Positions 8,076 to 15,077 of a stretch of DNA of 64,000 bases are shown here, piece by piece. Numbering within the stretch: the stretch's first letter is position 1; every line of letters starts with the position of its first letter. The position numbers and the translations under genes were made by a program. The stretch is from Haladaptatus caseinilyticus (GTDB lineage Archaea > Halobacteriota > Halobacteria > Halobacteriales > Haladaptataceae). The stretch lies in contig NZ_CP111037.1 of NCBI RefSeq assembly GCF_026248685.1, positions 186,001-250,000 on the forward strand, in the 5' to 3' direction. The notes under the pieces are model-generated. The model worked only from the letters and a program-made list of their open reading frames with translations. It made no database searches and was not told the DNA's origin.

Positions 8076-9857
8076 TTATCGCACCGGAACGCGCTGACCT
8101 GCCGAAGTACGAATCGCGTCGAGATGCTTTTGAATCCACAGCTCGAGTGTCGTCAACGCCGAAATCGGTTTTATGTGATCAGCGCGGCCATCCAAATGAT
8201 CACGCTGGAGGTCACGAATCGTGTTCGAATCGAAGATCTCACGACTGCAGGCATCCTCGAGCAATTCGTCGATGAAAGCCCGCATATCAGTATCGTTTCG
8301 ATACCAGAGACCCATTTGCGAGGTCGTTTGTCCGAGAACACGTTTCTTGACGTTGTCCGCGACGAACCCCAATGCATGCAGAGTGAGGGGCGACGTCGGT
8401 GGCCGTTTCGTTCGATTGTACGGGACGGTAGCAGCAGGTCCTGCGACTCGTCGAGCGACTTCGAGTTTGAGGGGTGCAACGGCGGACGGAACTTTGCCGC
8501 GTGTGCCGGGAATCGATCCGATTCGGTATCGGTCGTAGGGCATTTGAGCGACGTGGTTCATGAACTCTCCATCCGCAAACGGTACGCGAGTACCAGCCTG
8601 GCTCCGATAGAGCCGATTCGAACGGAAATGTGAATCCGCGAATATTTCCCAGAGTGCATCGAGCGTTCTGTGCTCACGCCGAGGTTGCGCGCTTCGTTCG
8701 ACCACGCGGCCCAGCGATTGTTCCGGGGAAACGTCCACGGAGAGGAGGTTCTGTACGTCAGCGGGGGATAACTGGCTTTTCAGGGAGGTGAGCGCATCCA
8801 CAGGCTGTTTGCCGGTGAGATACGACCGGTACATCACATCGCCGAAGAATTCGCCTTGGCTGCTTCCCTCGAACAGCACGTCCACCTGCCCGGAAACGCT
8901 GTTCAGCGAAGGAGCGAGATTGACGAAAAACGACCACTGCAGCATCCCGTCCATGATGTCCACGCCACGTTCGATGGCCTCCACGAACTCGGTGGAGGAG
9001 TAGTCGTGAAACTGGTTCGGCAGTTCGAGCGACTGGGCGACCCGTTCCGCGCCGATTCGATCCTCTTGTGTTGCGGAGTTATCGTAGGTGAACGTCTGAA
9101 CTGAACCGATTTCGTCCCTCAGCGCGGCGGCGAGCGTCCTGCTATCGAGACCGCCGGAAAGCCATACACCTGCCCGACCGTCGATGGTATCCGCGACGTT
9201 GCTGACGACCCGCCGATACCGGCGAACCGCTTCTTCGACGTATTCCTGCTGCGGGGCGACACCGAAATCGGGAGTCCAGTATCGAGACATTTCCACGTTA
9301 CTCGCCTCGTGACGCAGATACGAAGCTGGTCGAAGCGAGCGAATGTCGGAGACGAGCGTCTTGCGACCGAACACATACCCCATATGCAACATATCGCTCA
9401 CCGCTCGTTCGTCCACTCGTGGGTCTTGCAGTTGCGTGACCAGCGATTTGAGTTCGCTTCCGAAAAGAAACCCGTGAACGGTCGAATAGTAACACGGCCG
9501 CGTTCCGATTTTGTCAGTGGCGATGATAGTAGACGTCTCGTCGGCAACAACGAGCAAGAACGGACCGCTCAGTTCCGGAAGCGTGTGGTCGGGATTGGAG
9601 AGAACACGCTCAAAAATTTTGGCGGTCGAAAGCCCCAGCTCCGCGCGGTTCGAGATAACACCGTGGAGCACGCCGACTCGTTTTCCATCACGCCACGTCG
9701 TCCAACCGTTCGAATCTCGCTCGCCATGATGGACGAATCCGATTCGGCAGTCGCCAGCCGAAAGTTCGGCAGTCTCGTACCACTCCTCGTAATCCATCGC
9801 GTCGAACATCTCACCGAGAGATCGACTGCTGACAGTACCACCAGTTACGCCAGGCAT
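8076..9857 (-). CDS. Asparagine-synthetase-like protein lacking the N-terminal Cys nucleophile
   Basis: From ATG 9857 the protein has 593 residues, with class II glutamine amidotransferase fold features in the first 180 residues (for example 'GPFLLVVADETSTIIATDKIGTRP' in part) and an ATP-pyrophosphatase synthetase domain after residue 200. The PP-loop is WLSGGLDSRT. The family normally begins Met-Cys-Gly, with Cys2 as glutaminase nucleophile; here the chain begins Met-Pro-Gly. Ammonia release from glutamine is therefore unlikely, and the enzyme may use free ammonia or another nucleophile. Haloarchaeal AsnB-like proteins can occur in surface-glycan or secondary-metabolite contexts. The neighbour is a secreted, sequon-rich repeat protein, but no operon link is seen. 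Confidence 0.8.
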   Translation of the reverse strand: MPGVTGGTVSSRSLGEMFDAMDYEEWYETAELSAGDCRIGFVHHGERDSNGWTTWRDGKRVGVLHGVISNRAELGLSTAKIFERVLSNPDHTLPELSGPFLLVVADETSTIIATDKIGTRPCYYSTVHGFLFGSELKSLVTQLQDPRVDERAVSDMLHMGYVFGRKTLVSDIRSLRPASYLRHEASNVEMSRYWTPDFGVAPQQEYVEEAVRRYRRVVSNVADTIDGRAGVWLSGGLDSRTLAAALRDEIGSVQTFTYDNSATQEDRIGAERVAQSLELPNQFHDYSSTEFVEAIERGVDIMDGMLQWSFFVNLAPSLNSVSGQVDVLFEGSSQGEFFGDVMYRSYLTGKQPVDALTSLKSQLSPADVQNLLSVDVSPEQSLGRVVERSAQPRREHRTLDALWEIFADSHFRSNRLYRSQAGTRVPFADGEFMNHVAQMPYDRYRIGSIPGTRGKVPSAVAPLKLEVARRVAGPAATVPYNRTKRPPTSPLTLHALGFVADNVKKRVLGQTTSQMGLWYRNDTDMRAFIDELLEDACSREIFDSNTIRDLQRDHLDGRADHIKPISALTTLELWIQKHLDAIRTSAGQRVPVR

Positions 9858-10027
9858 AGCGGATAAGTTCACGACTGCCTATATTGTTATGAGACGCCTT
9901 CGGCGGAATTAGGCGACGTTTGCGCGAATCGTAGGACGACAAAACCCGATTTGGATCGGTCTAACGGGAAGTAGGCATCGCGTTCGGTCGAAAAAAGATT
10001 GCGAAACTGAAAGCCGCGGTCCGGTGT

Positions 10028-12265
10028 TTATCCGGAAGCGTTAGCCGGTGCCGTTGGTTCCGGCTGTGGCGGTTCGGTCGGTTGTGGTTCTGGTTGGGTT
10101 GGTTGTGGTGGTTCGGTCGGCTGTGGTTGTTCGGTTGGCTGTGGTTGTTCGGTTGGTCCTTCGGTTTGGGTTCCGGCCTGCGTTCCCGTCGCCGTCCCAT
10201 CGACTTCCGCGGTCTGCTCCGCGGTGTTTTGAATCTCTTGTAGGCTCGCACCGGTCGCGGCTGCATTGACGCCCTGCTGAGCGCCGTTTGCCGCGATGTT
10301 CTGGATGACGTTGATGTTGACGTTCTGGTTCACCGATGCCGTCTGTATCGCACCAGTTGCCCCACCGTTTGCCGCGGCTTGGACTTCCTGTGGCGAGACG
10401 TTGGGGTTCTCTGCGGCCGCGCCGACAGCGCCCTCCGCGCTACCGAGCACGGCGTTGAGGATGATGTTGATGTTCACGTTCTGATTCACTGCAGCGGAAC
10501 CGACGCCACCTTCAGCGGCACCGAGCGCCGCGTTGAGGATGACGTTGATGTTGACGTTCTGGTTCACTGCACCGGCCTGTCCAGCACCCAATGCAGCACC
10601 CTGCGCTGCGTTGAGAATGACGTTGATGTTGACGTTCTGATTGACCGCTCCCTGCACGGCACCCTGTGCGCCACCGAGTGCCGCGTTGAGGATGACGTTG
10701 ATGTTGACGTTCTGATTGACCGCTCCAACACCGACACCACCCTGTGCTGCACCGGCAGCTGCGTTGAGAATGACGTTGATGTTGACGTTCTGGTTCACTG
10801 CACCCTGCACGGCACCTTGCGCACCGCCGAGCGCGGCGTTCTGGATGACGTTGATGTTGACGTTTTGGTTCACCGCCCCTTGCTGCACGGCCCCACCAGC
10901 CGCGCCGAGTACGGCGTTCTGGATGACGTTCACGTTCACGTTCTGGTTCACTGCACCAGCTTGGACGCCCCCCTTCGCCGCACCGAGTGCGGCGTTCTGG
11001 ACGACGTTCACGTTCACGTTCTGGTTCGCGGCAGCAGCTTGCACGGCTCCGCTCGCGGCTCCGAGCGCGGCGTTCTGAATGACGTTCACGTTTGCGTTCT
11101 GGTTGATCGCCCCGGCCGCCGCGCCAAGTGCGGCGTTCTGGACGACGTTCACGTTCACGTTCTGGTTGACGGCGCTCTGAACTGCACCGGCGGCCGCCCC
11201 GAGCGCGGCGTTCTGGACGACGTTCACGTTCGCGTTCTGATTGACGGCTTGTTGCAGCGCACCCTTCGCTGCACCAAGCGCAGCGTTCTGGACGACGTTC
11301 ACGTTCGCGTTCTGGTTCGCGGCCGACACCGCACCGCCACCCGCTCCGAACGCTGCGTTCTGGACGACGTTCACGTTCGCGTTCTGATTGACGGCTTGCT
11401 GAAGCGCACCCTTCGCTGCACCGAGTGCGGCATTTTGGACGACGTTCACGTTCGCGTTCTGGTTCGCAACACTACCCTGAACACATCCGTTCGCAGCGCC
11501 GAGCGCGGCGTTCTGGACGACGTTCACGTTCGCGTTCTGGTTGATGCCCTGCTGAGCGGCACCGTTCGCCGCTCCGGAAGCAGCGTTCTGGACGACGTTC
11601 ACGTTCGCGTTCTGGTTGACCGCTCCAGCGGCCGCACCGAACGCCGCGTTCTGGATGACGTTGACGTTAACGTTCTGGTTGACTTGCTTCAATCCCAGTT
11701 TCGAGGCCGAACTCGCGTTACTGGTTGTCGTGTTGTTTCCGGAAGTCGTCGTTCCGACAGCTCCGTCGGTGAAGTTGCCGGTCGTCGCGTTCTCACTTGC
11801 GTTCGACGCACCAGTGAGGGCACCAAATGCTGCTCCTTGTGCGGACGCTGCGAGTTGTTCAGGGCTCGCATCTGCATTCTGGAGCGCACCGCCAACGGCG
11901 CCAGTGACTGCCGCCTCTCGCTCGGCGGAACTCACGTCAACTCCAGCGTCGGTCGCTTCCTGAACGCCCTGGAGCGCACCCTGGACGGCGGCCTGTCGGC
12001 TTTCGTTGCCCTGTGTCGCGTTGCCGACCGTCGTCTGGTTACCAGTTTGATTGCCGAGTTGTCGGCTACTGATCGCCAGTTTCGACGGGCCATCGAGCGA
12101 GTTTAGGCCATCGACTGGAGAAGCTTGCGAGAGATACTCCGGATTCGGTGTATCCTGTATTGCTACGCTATTCGACTGACCAAGCGCGACGAAGGGGACG
12201 CTCGTGCTAGCAATCAAGAAGATTGCGACGGTAGCGACAAGTCCTTGTTTTACGCTTATGGACAT
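10028..12265 (-). CDS. Secreted Asn/Val-repeat protein, probable surface or matrix fibre
   Basis: From ATG 12265 the protein has 745 residues. Residues 1-30 form a Sec signal peptide (VATVAIFLIASTSVPFVALG). Residues 70-190 are rich in N-glycosylation sequons (NQT, NAT, NES, NAS, NFT, NNT). From residue 195 come 18 tandem units with the core NQNxNVNVxxNA followed by an 8-13 residue Gly/Ala spacer. The tail is a (PQPTEQ/PEPT)-type Pro-rich stalk ending in ANASG, with no C-terminal membrane helix. Alternation of Asn with Val/Ile predicts amphipathic beta strands with stacked Asn faces, as in solenoids or functional amyloids; the GA spacers could pack closely. No known family is recognised. A longer start at 12361 would put a non-hydrophobic segment before the signal peptide. 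Confidence 0.8.
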   Translation of the reverse strand: MSISVKQGLVATVAIFLIASTSVPFVALGQSNSVAIQDTPNPEYLSQASPVDGLNSLDGPSKLAISSRQLGNQTGNQTTVGNATQGNESRQAAVQGALQGVQEATDAGVDVSSAEREAAVTGAVGGALQNADASPEQLAASAQGAAFGALTGASNASENATTGNFTDGAVGTTTSGNNTTTSNASSASKLGLKQVNQNVNVNVIQNAAFGAAAGAVNQNANVNVVQNAASGAANGAAQQGINQNANVNVVQNAALGAANGCVQGSVANQNANVNVVQNAALGAAKGALQQAVNQNANVNVVQNAAFGAGGGAVSAANQNANVNVVQNAALGAAKGALQQAVNQNANVNVVQNAALGAAAGAVQSAVNQNVNVNVVQNAALGAAAGAINQNANVNVIQNAALGAASGAVQAAAANQNVNVNVVQNAALGAAKGGVQAGAVNQNVNVNVIQNAVLGAAGGAVQQGAVNQNVNINVIQNAALGGAQGAVQGAVNQNVNINVILNAAAGAAQGGVGVGAVNQNVNINVILNAALGGAQGAVQGAVNQNVNINVILNAAQGAALGAGQAGAVNQNVNINVILNAALGAAEGGVGSAAVNQNVNINIILNAVLGSAEGAVGAAAENPNVSPQEVQAAANGGATGAIQTASVNQNVNINVIQNIAANGAQQGVNAAATGASLQEIQNTAEQTAEVDGTATGTQAGTQTEGPTEQPQPTEQPQPTEPPQPTQPEPQPTEPPQPEPTAPANASG
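10300..11683 (-). repeat. Array of 18 in-frame coding repeats (period about 63-78 nt)
   Basis: Each unit encodes a conserved 11-residue Asn/Val core and a variable Gly/Ala spacer; the last two units carry longer spacers. Units near the N-terminus use NANVNVVQN, those near the C-terminus NVNINVILN, a gradient expected from stepwise unit duplication. Neighbouring near-identical peptide units differ at synonymous positions (for example around 11246-11280 versus 11390-11430), so the protein sequence appears to be under selection. Confidence 0.85.
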
Positions 12266-12784
12266 CGTCCCACCTGTACGTCCCGAAGTCGTATTCGCTG
12301 TACAGTACGTTCGATGTTCGGTGTTGAAATCATGGTCTTTTGTAGCGGCAGTGCCGCTCAACAGGACAGTATCGCGAGACGCCGTTGTTAAGCCAGTATA
12401 GTGTTAATTACGTTCAACAAAAGTAACGGAAGTGACGATGGGGGGATCCGATCGGTATTCATCAAAACCGATAGTAGAGCTTATGAACGCAGGTATTTTG
12501 TACATTCGAAAAATCCGACCGATACTAACTGTACATTGGACCATATCATAGTTCTACCGCTACGGGCAACCAGTGTATCGTACGATAGAGCGCAGTAATT
12601 GACCGCTGCCCTCCATCTCCGAACAGACACGGAAAAGTATCGAACATAGAAACCCTAGAAACGCAATCGTATCCACTTTGCTTTCTGGACAATCAAATGA
12701 ACGGTTCGGCAATTTTCGTGTTTTGGAACGAAACCGACTTTGGATATCGACAGTACGCGAAAAAAGGACTCAACTTTCGATCGG
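12266..12784. other. Upstream region of the repeat gene, no gene recognised
   Basis: The first part is leader or promoter DNA for the repeat protein. The rest, 12400-12784, is A/T-rich with no coding frame that has haloarchaeal composition. No clear TATA box was found at the expected distance before 12265. Confidence 0.4.
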
Positions 12785-13217: not shown

Positions 13218-15077
13218 TCAGACCACTTCGTCGCCGAAGAATTCACCGCAGAGTTTACGCTCCGCCGCTCTGAGATGTTCGTGGAACGTCGAACGTGAGA
13301 TCCGCATCGACTCGGCGAGTTCTTCGCCTGTCACCGGACGCGGCCAATCGAAAAACCCGCTAACGTAGGCGGTCTGGAGCGCAGTCAACTGCCGTTCGGT
13401 GAGATTGTCGGTCAGGTTTTTGATGAAGTCCTGCTTTGTCTTCGCTGGACGCTCCCGATGCCGGTAGGCGAGTAGTTCGGTTCCTGGATACGAATCCTTC
13501 AACCTCTCGACGAGTCCACGAACGTCCGCCGCCTGTGGAAATTCGACGACGACTCGCGACTCGCTCGGTGTCGCCGTAATCGCCTGTGTTTTCCCGCCGT
13601 ACTCCGACATGGTCGAAACGAGCGTCCCTGCCGGGAGAACGAACTCGAACAAGGCTTCACCATCGTGTTCGGCGACAAGTCGAGCCTCGGTCACACCCGA
13701 TTTGCTTTCGACAACGTTCAGTACGTCGTCCGTGGATGCATCACGAACCGAGAAGAACGAGACGACGGAGCCATCGTCCCGGTTAGTCGATTGCAGATAT
13801 TCGACGTTTCCCCCGGTACTGTCGGCGATATCTACGAAGAAGAGGTCGGAGCTTTGGAAGGCGAACTCGGTTTCGACCACGCTGTCGGCAATGAGAATAC
13901 GGCGTGTCTCGCGGGCATTGATGGCACTCGCGATGGCTCGGCTCAACGACCGAAGAACGACCTGTTCCCGTTCGTCGAACGCGTCCGATTCCGTCGCACA
14001 AATCGTGAGGACACCGTACTCCGTGTCGTCGTATGCGATGGGGAGCGCGGCGACTGCGGCACATCCTTCGATACCGAGTTCGTCGACCTGTAGTTCTCCG
14101 GTTTCGAGCGCCTCAGCGACGATCGGATGGTCCGGTTGAGGCTCGCAGTCGCCCGCCATCGCGCGCACTTCGACGCTATCCGTTCTGATGTCGTGCTCTC
14201 CGACCCAGGCAAAGTTGTACGGCTCGACGCTCGATATGCGGTCACAGACAGCCGTCTCGATCGCCTGTCTGGTGGGTGCCTCGACCACTGCGCTAGTCAC
14301 ATCGCCGAGAAGCCCCTCGATTCGTTCGAGCAAATGCTCCCGTTCCTCAGCACGCCTGCGGGCCGTGAACTCGGCGTTTTTACGTTCGCTAATATCCGTC
14401 TGGAAGCCAACGAAATGGGACACTTCGCCATCCTCGTCGCGTATCGGTGCGATATCGACGCGGTTCCAGAACTCTTTGCCGTCCTTCCGGTAGTTGCGTA
14501 GTTCGACCGAAACTGGTTCCTCCGCATCGATTGCGGCCCGCATTTTCGCGATGGAACCGGGGTCGGATTGCTCGCCCTGAAGGAATCGACAGTTGCGCCC
14601 GATCACGTTCGCAGAATCGTACCCGGTCAGCTCCTCGAACGCCTCGTTGATGTAGATGAGCGGTTCATCGTCGGATTCAGCATCGGCGATGGTGATGCCG
14701 ATGGGAGCCTCGTTGATCGCTCGCTCCTTTAGTTCGAGTTCAGCCGCCACATCCTCGAACGAGCCGACTTCACGGAACACGATCGTCACGCCGGAGTCGT
14801 CCGGATGGGTAGTCGCTTCGTAGCGTAAATCCCGAAACAGCATCGAAAACGTCCGGGATTGCCCATCCGCAATCGACGTTCGACAGCGTTTGTGGATCGT
14901 CTCGCCTGCAGTCGTCGGTAAGGCGTCGGGCAGTCGCTCGCCGATGCCGAGTGCAAAAACGTCGCGTGCAGGGTCGTTTAGATAGGTGACTCGCCACTCG
15001 TCGTCGAGCGCGAGCACCGGGTCGGTGAGACGCTCGACGGCGTGTCGCGCCGTGCGAGTCTGGTCAGCTGAATCCAT
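13218..15077 (-). CDS. LOV/PAS-GAF Bat-type transcription regulator
   Basis: The protein has 619 residues. The domains in order are a PAS-like domain (12-105), a LOV-type PAS domain (118-230), a GAF domain (245-390), the Bat/bacterio-opsin activator domain (400-540) and a C-terminal HTH_10 (555-610, TERQLTALQTAYVSGFFDWP then SRSTFHEHLRAAERKL). The LOV motif GRNCRFLQG spans 160-168, with the photo-adduct cysteine at Cys163. Asn195, Asn205 and Gln226 also match the flavin-contact positions of LOV domains. It should be a cytoplasmic blue-light or redox-responsive transcription factor. No retinal protein gene is adjacent; the nearest carotenoid enzyme is near 34 kb. Confidence 0.85.
   Translation of the reverse strand: MDSADQTRTARHAVERLTDPVLALDDEWRVTYLNDPARDVFALGIGERLPDALPTTAGETIHKRCRTSIADGQSRTFSMLFRDLRYEATTHPDDSGVTIVFREVGSFEDVAAELELKERAINEAPIGITIADAESDDEPLIYINEAFEELTGYDSANVIGRNCRFLQGEQSDPGSIAKMRAAIDAEEPVSVELRNYRKDGKEFWNRVDIAPIRDEDGEVSHFVGFQTDISERKNAEFTARRRAEEREHLLERIEGLLGDVTSAVVEAPTRQAIETAVCDRISSVEPYNFAWVGEHDIRTDSVEVRAMAGDCEPQPDHPIVAEALETGELQVDELGIEGCAAVAALPIAYDDTEYGVLTICATESDAFDEREQVVLRSLSRAIASAINARETRRILIADSVVETEFAFQSSDLFFVDIADSTGGNVEYLQSTNRDDGSVVSFFSVRDASTDDVLNVVESKSGVTEARLVAEHDGEALFEFVLPAGTLVSTMSEYGGKTQAITATPSESRVVVEFPQAADVRGLVERLKDSYPGTELLAYRHRERPAKTKQDFIKNLTDNLTERQLTALQTAYVSGFFDWPRPVTGEELAESMRISRSTFHEHLRAAERKLCGEFFGDEVV

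Follow-up and report, generated by a model that had tools for sequence, protein, structure and literature searches.

A nearly charge-free, Asn-rich secreted protein of Haladaptatus represents a genus-specific branch of a haloarchaeal repeat family not yet catalogued

What does a haloarchaeon build from a secreted protein whose body is a long tandem array rich in Asn and Val? The gene that raises this question lies in a window of 64,000 nucleotides from Haladaptatus caseinilyticus, where the initial annotation read it as a candidate archaeal fibre or functional amyloid. The span proposed for it, 10028-12265, is exact: on the minus strand, an ATG at 12265 and a TAA at 10030-10028 delimit a protein of 745 amino acids, with an SD-like AGGTG (12271-12275, minus strand) at -10, 5' of the start. 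Secretion, also proposed, is supported by a Sec-type signal peptide at residues ~1-30 (12176-12265), recognized by eye and not with a predictor. The linker that follows (residues 31-195; 11681-12175) is indeed the sequon-rich spacer that had been described, having 10 N-glycosylation sequons in 165 residues compared to 1 in the 475-residue repeat region (residues 196-670; 10256-11680). The protein ends in a predicted C-terminal helix and a tail, Pro-rich as claimed and rich in Glu and Gln as well; no hydrophobic anchor is seen in the sequence of this part (residues 671-745; 10031-10255). An antisense open frame of 575 codons (10379-12106, plus strand) runs through the repeats, and similar frames occur in relatives; it is probably a by-product of the codon bias of the array.

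The reported count of 18 tandem units stands, with one addition. The pattern NQN.N[VI]N[VI]..N matches the protein 18 times but not once in any of 1000 composition-preserving shuffles, and unit parsing adds a 19th, degenerate unit at residue 620 (NPNVSPQEVQAAANGGATGAI) to an array whose units span 21-26 amino acids. The degenerate unit (NPNVSPQEVQAAANGGATGAIQTASV; residues 620-645; 10331-10408) contains V-S-P-Q-E-V-Q, with the Ser at position 6 and a helix start of the type S-P-x-E in register with the Asn units; V-S-P and E-V are conserved across aligned orthologues. The repeat region is 20% Asn and 12% Gln (together 32%), 26% Ala and 21% Val plus Ile. Haloarchaeal proteins are mostly acidic, and the near-absence of charge here, where 3 Lys/Arg and 4 Asp/Glu account for all 7 charged positions among 475 residues, is thus unusual.

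Synonymous differences between units had been taken as a sign of selection on the protein, and this can now be quantified. Against the orthologue of a close relative, a further Haladaptatus member (G003; 85% identity), the repeats have a dN of 0.046 and a dS of 0.955 (dN/dS ~0.05), and the signal peptide has a dN of 0.42. Compared with one another within the gene, units show a median dS of ~0.95 and a mean dN of 0.18. Purifying selection on the repeats is strong. For many units, the best match in G003 is the one at the corresponding position, which argues that the array was inherited and not freshly copied.

Sequence comparison places the Asn-type protein as a homologue of a family whose repeats have the consensus QxQxVxVxQIQxAAxGAAxGAL, here called the Gln type, and a paralogue of this type is present in the same genome (G000:C1:61779-64295), where a second gene, with Gln units, maps to C1:62175-63404. 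The two types align in hhalign with a probability of 99.8% (E 9e-28), and a Gln-repeat profile recovers the window gene at 8.9e-38. In BLASTP they share 38% identity, the first unit aligning without a shift of register. NQNVNVNVIQNAAFGAA, an Asn unit, pairs ungapped with NQQASVKQVQAAARGAA, and the two N-terminal domains can likewise be aligned. With the register anchored on Gly at positions 16 and 20, position 6 is Ser, Thr, Asn or Asp in 89% of 196 Gln-type units, against a background of 14.6% overall. The same holds for 84% of 433 units in a wider set of loci, some of which begin with DPKK, a typical helix start. Both features, the N-cap-like residue at 6 and Gly at 16 and 20, are present in the Asn type, where position 6 is Asn in 76/76 units, one of several invariant columns. 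Gln at positions 1, 3, 9 and 11, a Gln-type feature, is retained in the Asn units only at 3 (100%) and 11 (62%), position 1 being mostly Val, Ile or Ala and position 9 Val, and for this reason we treat the Asn type as a separate branch.

The two types thus share a unit register, the glycines, the position 6 residue, a signal peptide and a homologous N-terminal domain, but the Gln-type proteins have Gln for Asn, net positive repeats and further C-terminal domains (DUF7282, TSP3 repeats and others), in place of which the Asn type keeps just its Pro-rich tail. Ten Gln-type repeat regions that we counted hold 20-34 Lys/Arg against 4-23 Asp/Glu (for example L009:7104-8306, L048 and L047), a net basic charge atypical of haloarchaeal extracellular proteins. 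In L056 and L059 (by Pfam) and in L112-L114 (by eye), the Gln-type repeats are fused to long TSP3 arrays, giving a different stalk to the same repeat head. L055, L057 and L058 contain inserted QxQxVxVx stretches of about eight residues without a second helix, a hint of an extended connector.

How widespread is this family? A repeat-only profile (A5), from which both of the following counts derive, detects Gln-type repeats in 83 of 292 sampled Halobacteria genomes (31/77 genera). In a phylum-wide sample of 295 genomes, it detects them in 13, all of the same order, and nowhere else in the sample. A first profile had returned 227/292 genomes, a count inflated by many weak matches at C-terminal model positions ~840-1130, and was set aside. 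Pfam, NCBIfam and PHROGs hold no model for the repeat family and give no match at the accepted cut-off; up to an E of 10, the sole Pfam match of the window protein is New_glue, at E 3.4. We found no published name for these repeat proteins and no paper on the repeat in a literature search of partial coverage.

Asn units, in turn, were found in H. litoreus, in H. pallidirubidus (on a plasmid) and in H. halobius (on two plasmids), in addition to G003, and had no match outside Haladaptatus in the genome contigs searched or in IMG/VR. The protein is archaeal, as proposed, and belongs as a genus-specific form with almost no charge to a family of haloarchaeal repeats that has not been catalogued. 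The export route seems to differ among orthologues, with a Sec-like signal in the window protein and G003 and a Tat-like RR signal (LKRRTILSG, LKRRTVLSG) in those of H. litoreus, H. pallidirubidus and H. halobius. Of the H. halobius copies, the second (L041:7900-8500, plasmid) has an in-frame stop between its Tat-like signal region and its repeats and is probably broken; another plasmid of the same species carries an intact copy. In the window, the gene is flanked downstream by an Asn_synthase-like protein (GATase_7 plus Asn_synthase; 8076-9872, minus strand) and upstream by a PAS/GAF/BAT/HTH_10 regulator (13218-15077, minus strand). This order is common to G003 only, and the plasmid copies have no shared neighbour cluster. 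An operon with an assembly machine was rejected, as none was recognized among the neighbours and the order is kept only in G003. The Asn_synthase-like gene lies directly 3' of the Asn-rich repeat gene both here and in G003; any functional link between the two is putative.

Our analysis establishes the gene, its repeats, the selection on them, their homology and distribution, and the common register kept by residues of N-cap type. Building on these, we propose with a probability of roughly 0.6 that this is a secreted surface protein of haloarchaea, with a body of some 20 helical units stacked in a row as a rod. Within each unit, positions 1-5 would form a short extended Asn/Gln connector, position 6 the helix N-cap and positions 7-23 an Ala/Gly helix. 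This helix would have an exposed stripe (8, 12, 15, 19, 23), a hydrophobic stripe (7, 10, 11, 14, 17, 18, 21, 22) and a stripe of small residues for close packing (9, 13, 16, 20); the exposed and small stripes are compatible with a helix. Helical domains would cap both ends of the stack. The Haladaptatus-only branch would then have left the wider Gln-type family by fixing the connector and several exposed positions as Asn and by losing nearly all charge.

AlphaFold2 (AF2) models of both proteins bear on this proposal. In the Gln-type paralogue, helices are predicted at residues 113-129, 136-153, 159-177, 182-202 and 208-226, with pLDDT up to ~90, and no strands appear in the repeats; confidence is high near either terminus, and the middle is poorly predicted. 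As units start at 107, 130, 153, 176 and 202, the helices begin at position 7, one past the N-cap. The window protein is modelled with a mean pLDDT of 44, its helices lying at residues 83-162 and 603-685, mostly at pLDDT 75-90. The former constitute a helical domain inside the linker (12019-11780), which includes a helix-capped repeat-like unit, NADASPEQLAASAQGAAFGAL. The latter include the last canonical unit (residues 646-670; 10256-10330), the only canonical Asn unit modelled with confidence, as a helix at 651-670 with pLDDT 74-88. These C-terminal helical units, the N-terminal domain and the same-genome paralogue go beyond the initial annotation. From the modelled relatives, we infer that the Asn units are helical too. 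Among solved structures, the Gln-type model comes closest to two designed helical repeat proteins, DHR18 (prob 0.98, E 0.036) and DHR10 (TM to target 0.42), but these are artificial and the match is weak (E 0.036 and worse), no Foldseek match having an E below 0.001. A sequence search for solved relatives gave, as the best among the matches listed, low-complexity Thr/Pro matches, which we rejected.

The main rival to the helical rod is close to what was first proposed, namely that the Asn units have departed from a helical ancestor to form a beta-solenoid with two strands per turn, possibly polymerizing as a functional amyloid. We regard this as unlikely, but it has real points in its favor. 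AF2 places two short strands per unit in residues 320-600 (such as 440-451 and 456-462, with a period of 25-26 residues), Chou-Fasman propensity over positions 1-11 favors strand (1.25 versus 0.95), and the composition, with 32% Asn plus Gln and 21% Val plus Ile, would suit it. Biofilms of Haloferax volcanii bind amyloid dyes, with HVO_1403 suggested by the authors as a possible determinant but no protein proven (PMC4180959). Against this, the strands are modelled at pLDDT 25-63, the Gln-type homologues are modelled as helices, the N-cap register is retained in the Asn units, and unit 646 is itself a modelled helix; neither beta strands with an Asn ladder nor a functional amyloid is supported. 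The amyloid reading is weakened by these homologues, which lay beyond the view of the initial annotation. Like curli CsgA and CsgB, the protein is secreted and Asn/Gln-rich with repeats of ~23 amino acids, but the curlin core motif (PMC10192328) is absent: N-x-psi-x-psi-x-Q occurs 0 times in the repeats against 3.3 expected in shuffles, and Qx10Q spacing 0 times against 6.2. Nor is there a match to the Pfam Curlin repeat or a recognized csg-type secretion or nucleation gene nearby, the neighbors being the BAT regulator and the Asn_synthase-like protein. Membership among the curlins was therefore rejected, and the unlikeness to curli noted at the outset stands. The Methanospirillum sheath protein SH is likewise an archaeal extracellular structural protein but is described as forming beta-arch rings (PMC10593813), and is set apart here by that description only. 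A viral or phage fibre was rejected, there being no relative in IMG/VR, no convincing PHROG and no structural match in the viral library.

Two further readings turn on the connector and on the poorly modelled middle of the protein. The alternation over positions 1-12, together with a helix at 7-23, would suit an LRR-like beta-alpha solenoid in which the QxQxV or NQNxN connector is a strand stacking into a Gln/Asn ladder, with the helix on the opposite face. This seems improbable, as the Gln repeats lack strands in the AF2 model and units of 21 amino acids would leave about five residues for the return along the helix. A pLDDT of 20-45 over most of residues 160-400 might instead reflect a largely disordered, prion-like low-complexity chain serving as a flexible spacer, but the columns invariant in 76/76 units and a repeat dN/dS of ~0.05 exceed what composition alone would need, and we give this reading the least credence.

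The helical rod is favored by the Gln-type homology, the AF2 helices, the N-cap register, the helix of unit 646, the DHR folds, selection and the signal peptides. Counted against it are the low-confidence AF2 strands, the alternation over positions 1-12, the Chou-Fasman values, the extra QxQxVxVx stretches and the weak Foldseek matches. In the Gln units, conserved and variable residues alternate over positions 1-12 with significant strand power (p 0.001) and non-significant helix periodicity; over positions 8-23, helix periodicity is only suggestive (p ~0.07-0.11), and in the Asn units entropy periodicity favored neither form clearly. We hold the helical reading near its present probability and no higher because the periodicity is only suggestive and the alternation strong.

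The Asn-type protein, then, is probably not an amyloid fibre but a structural protein of the cell surface that has yet to be catalogued. Its shape would be that of a rod capped at its ends, and once secreted it may act as such a rod, or as a spacer, in the envelope or the matrix, with a structural or adhesive role at the surface. The Gln-type relatives fit what would be expected of a surface stalk, since they carry DUF7282 or TSP3 repeats as C-terminal domains.

Beyond removing a tempting but weak amyloid claim, the analysis brings to light a repeat family common in Halobacteria, in 31 of the 77 genera sampled, for which Pfam and NCBIfam have no model. The presence of both types in one genome provides a matched pair in which to ask whether Asn enrichment alters a fold, and what keeps an extracellular protein with almost no charge in solution at high salt. 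It is tempting to speculate that a helical Gln repeat evolved into a polymerizable beta-solenoid Asn repeat, a natural fold switch in a tandem repeat. We think this improbable; if true, the Asn repeat would be a candidate sequence for the amyloid-staining matrix of haloarchaeal biofilms.
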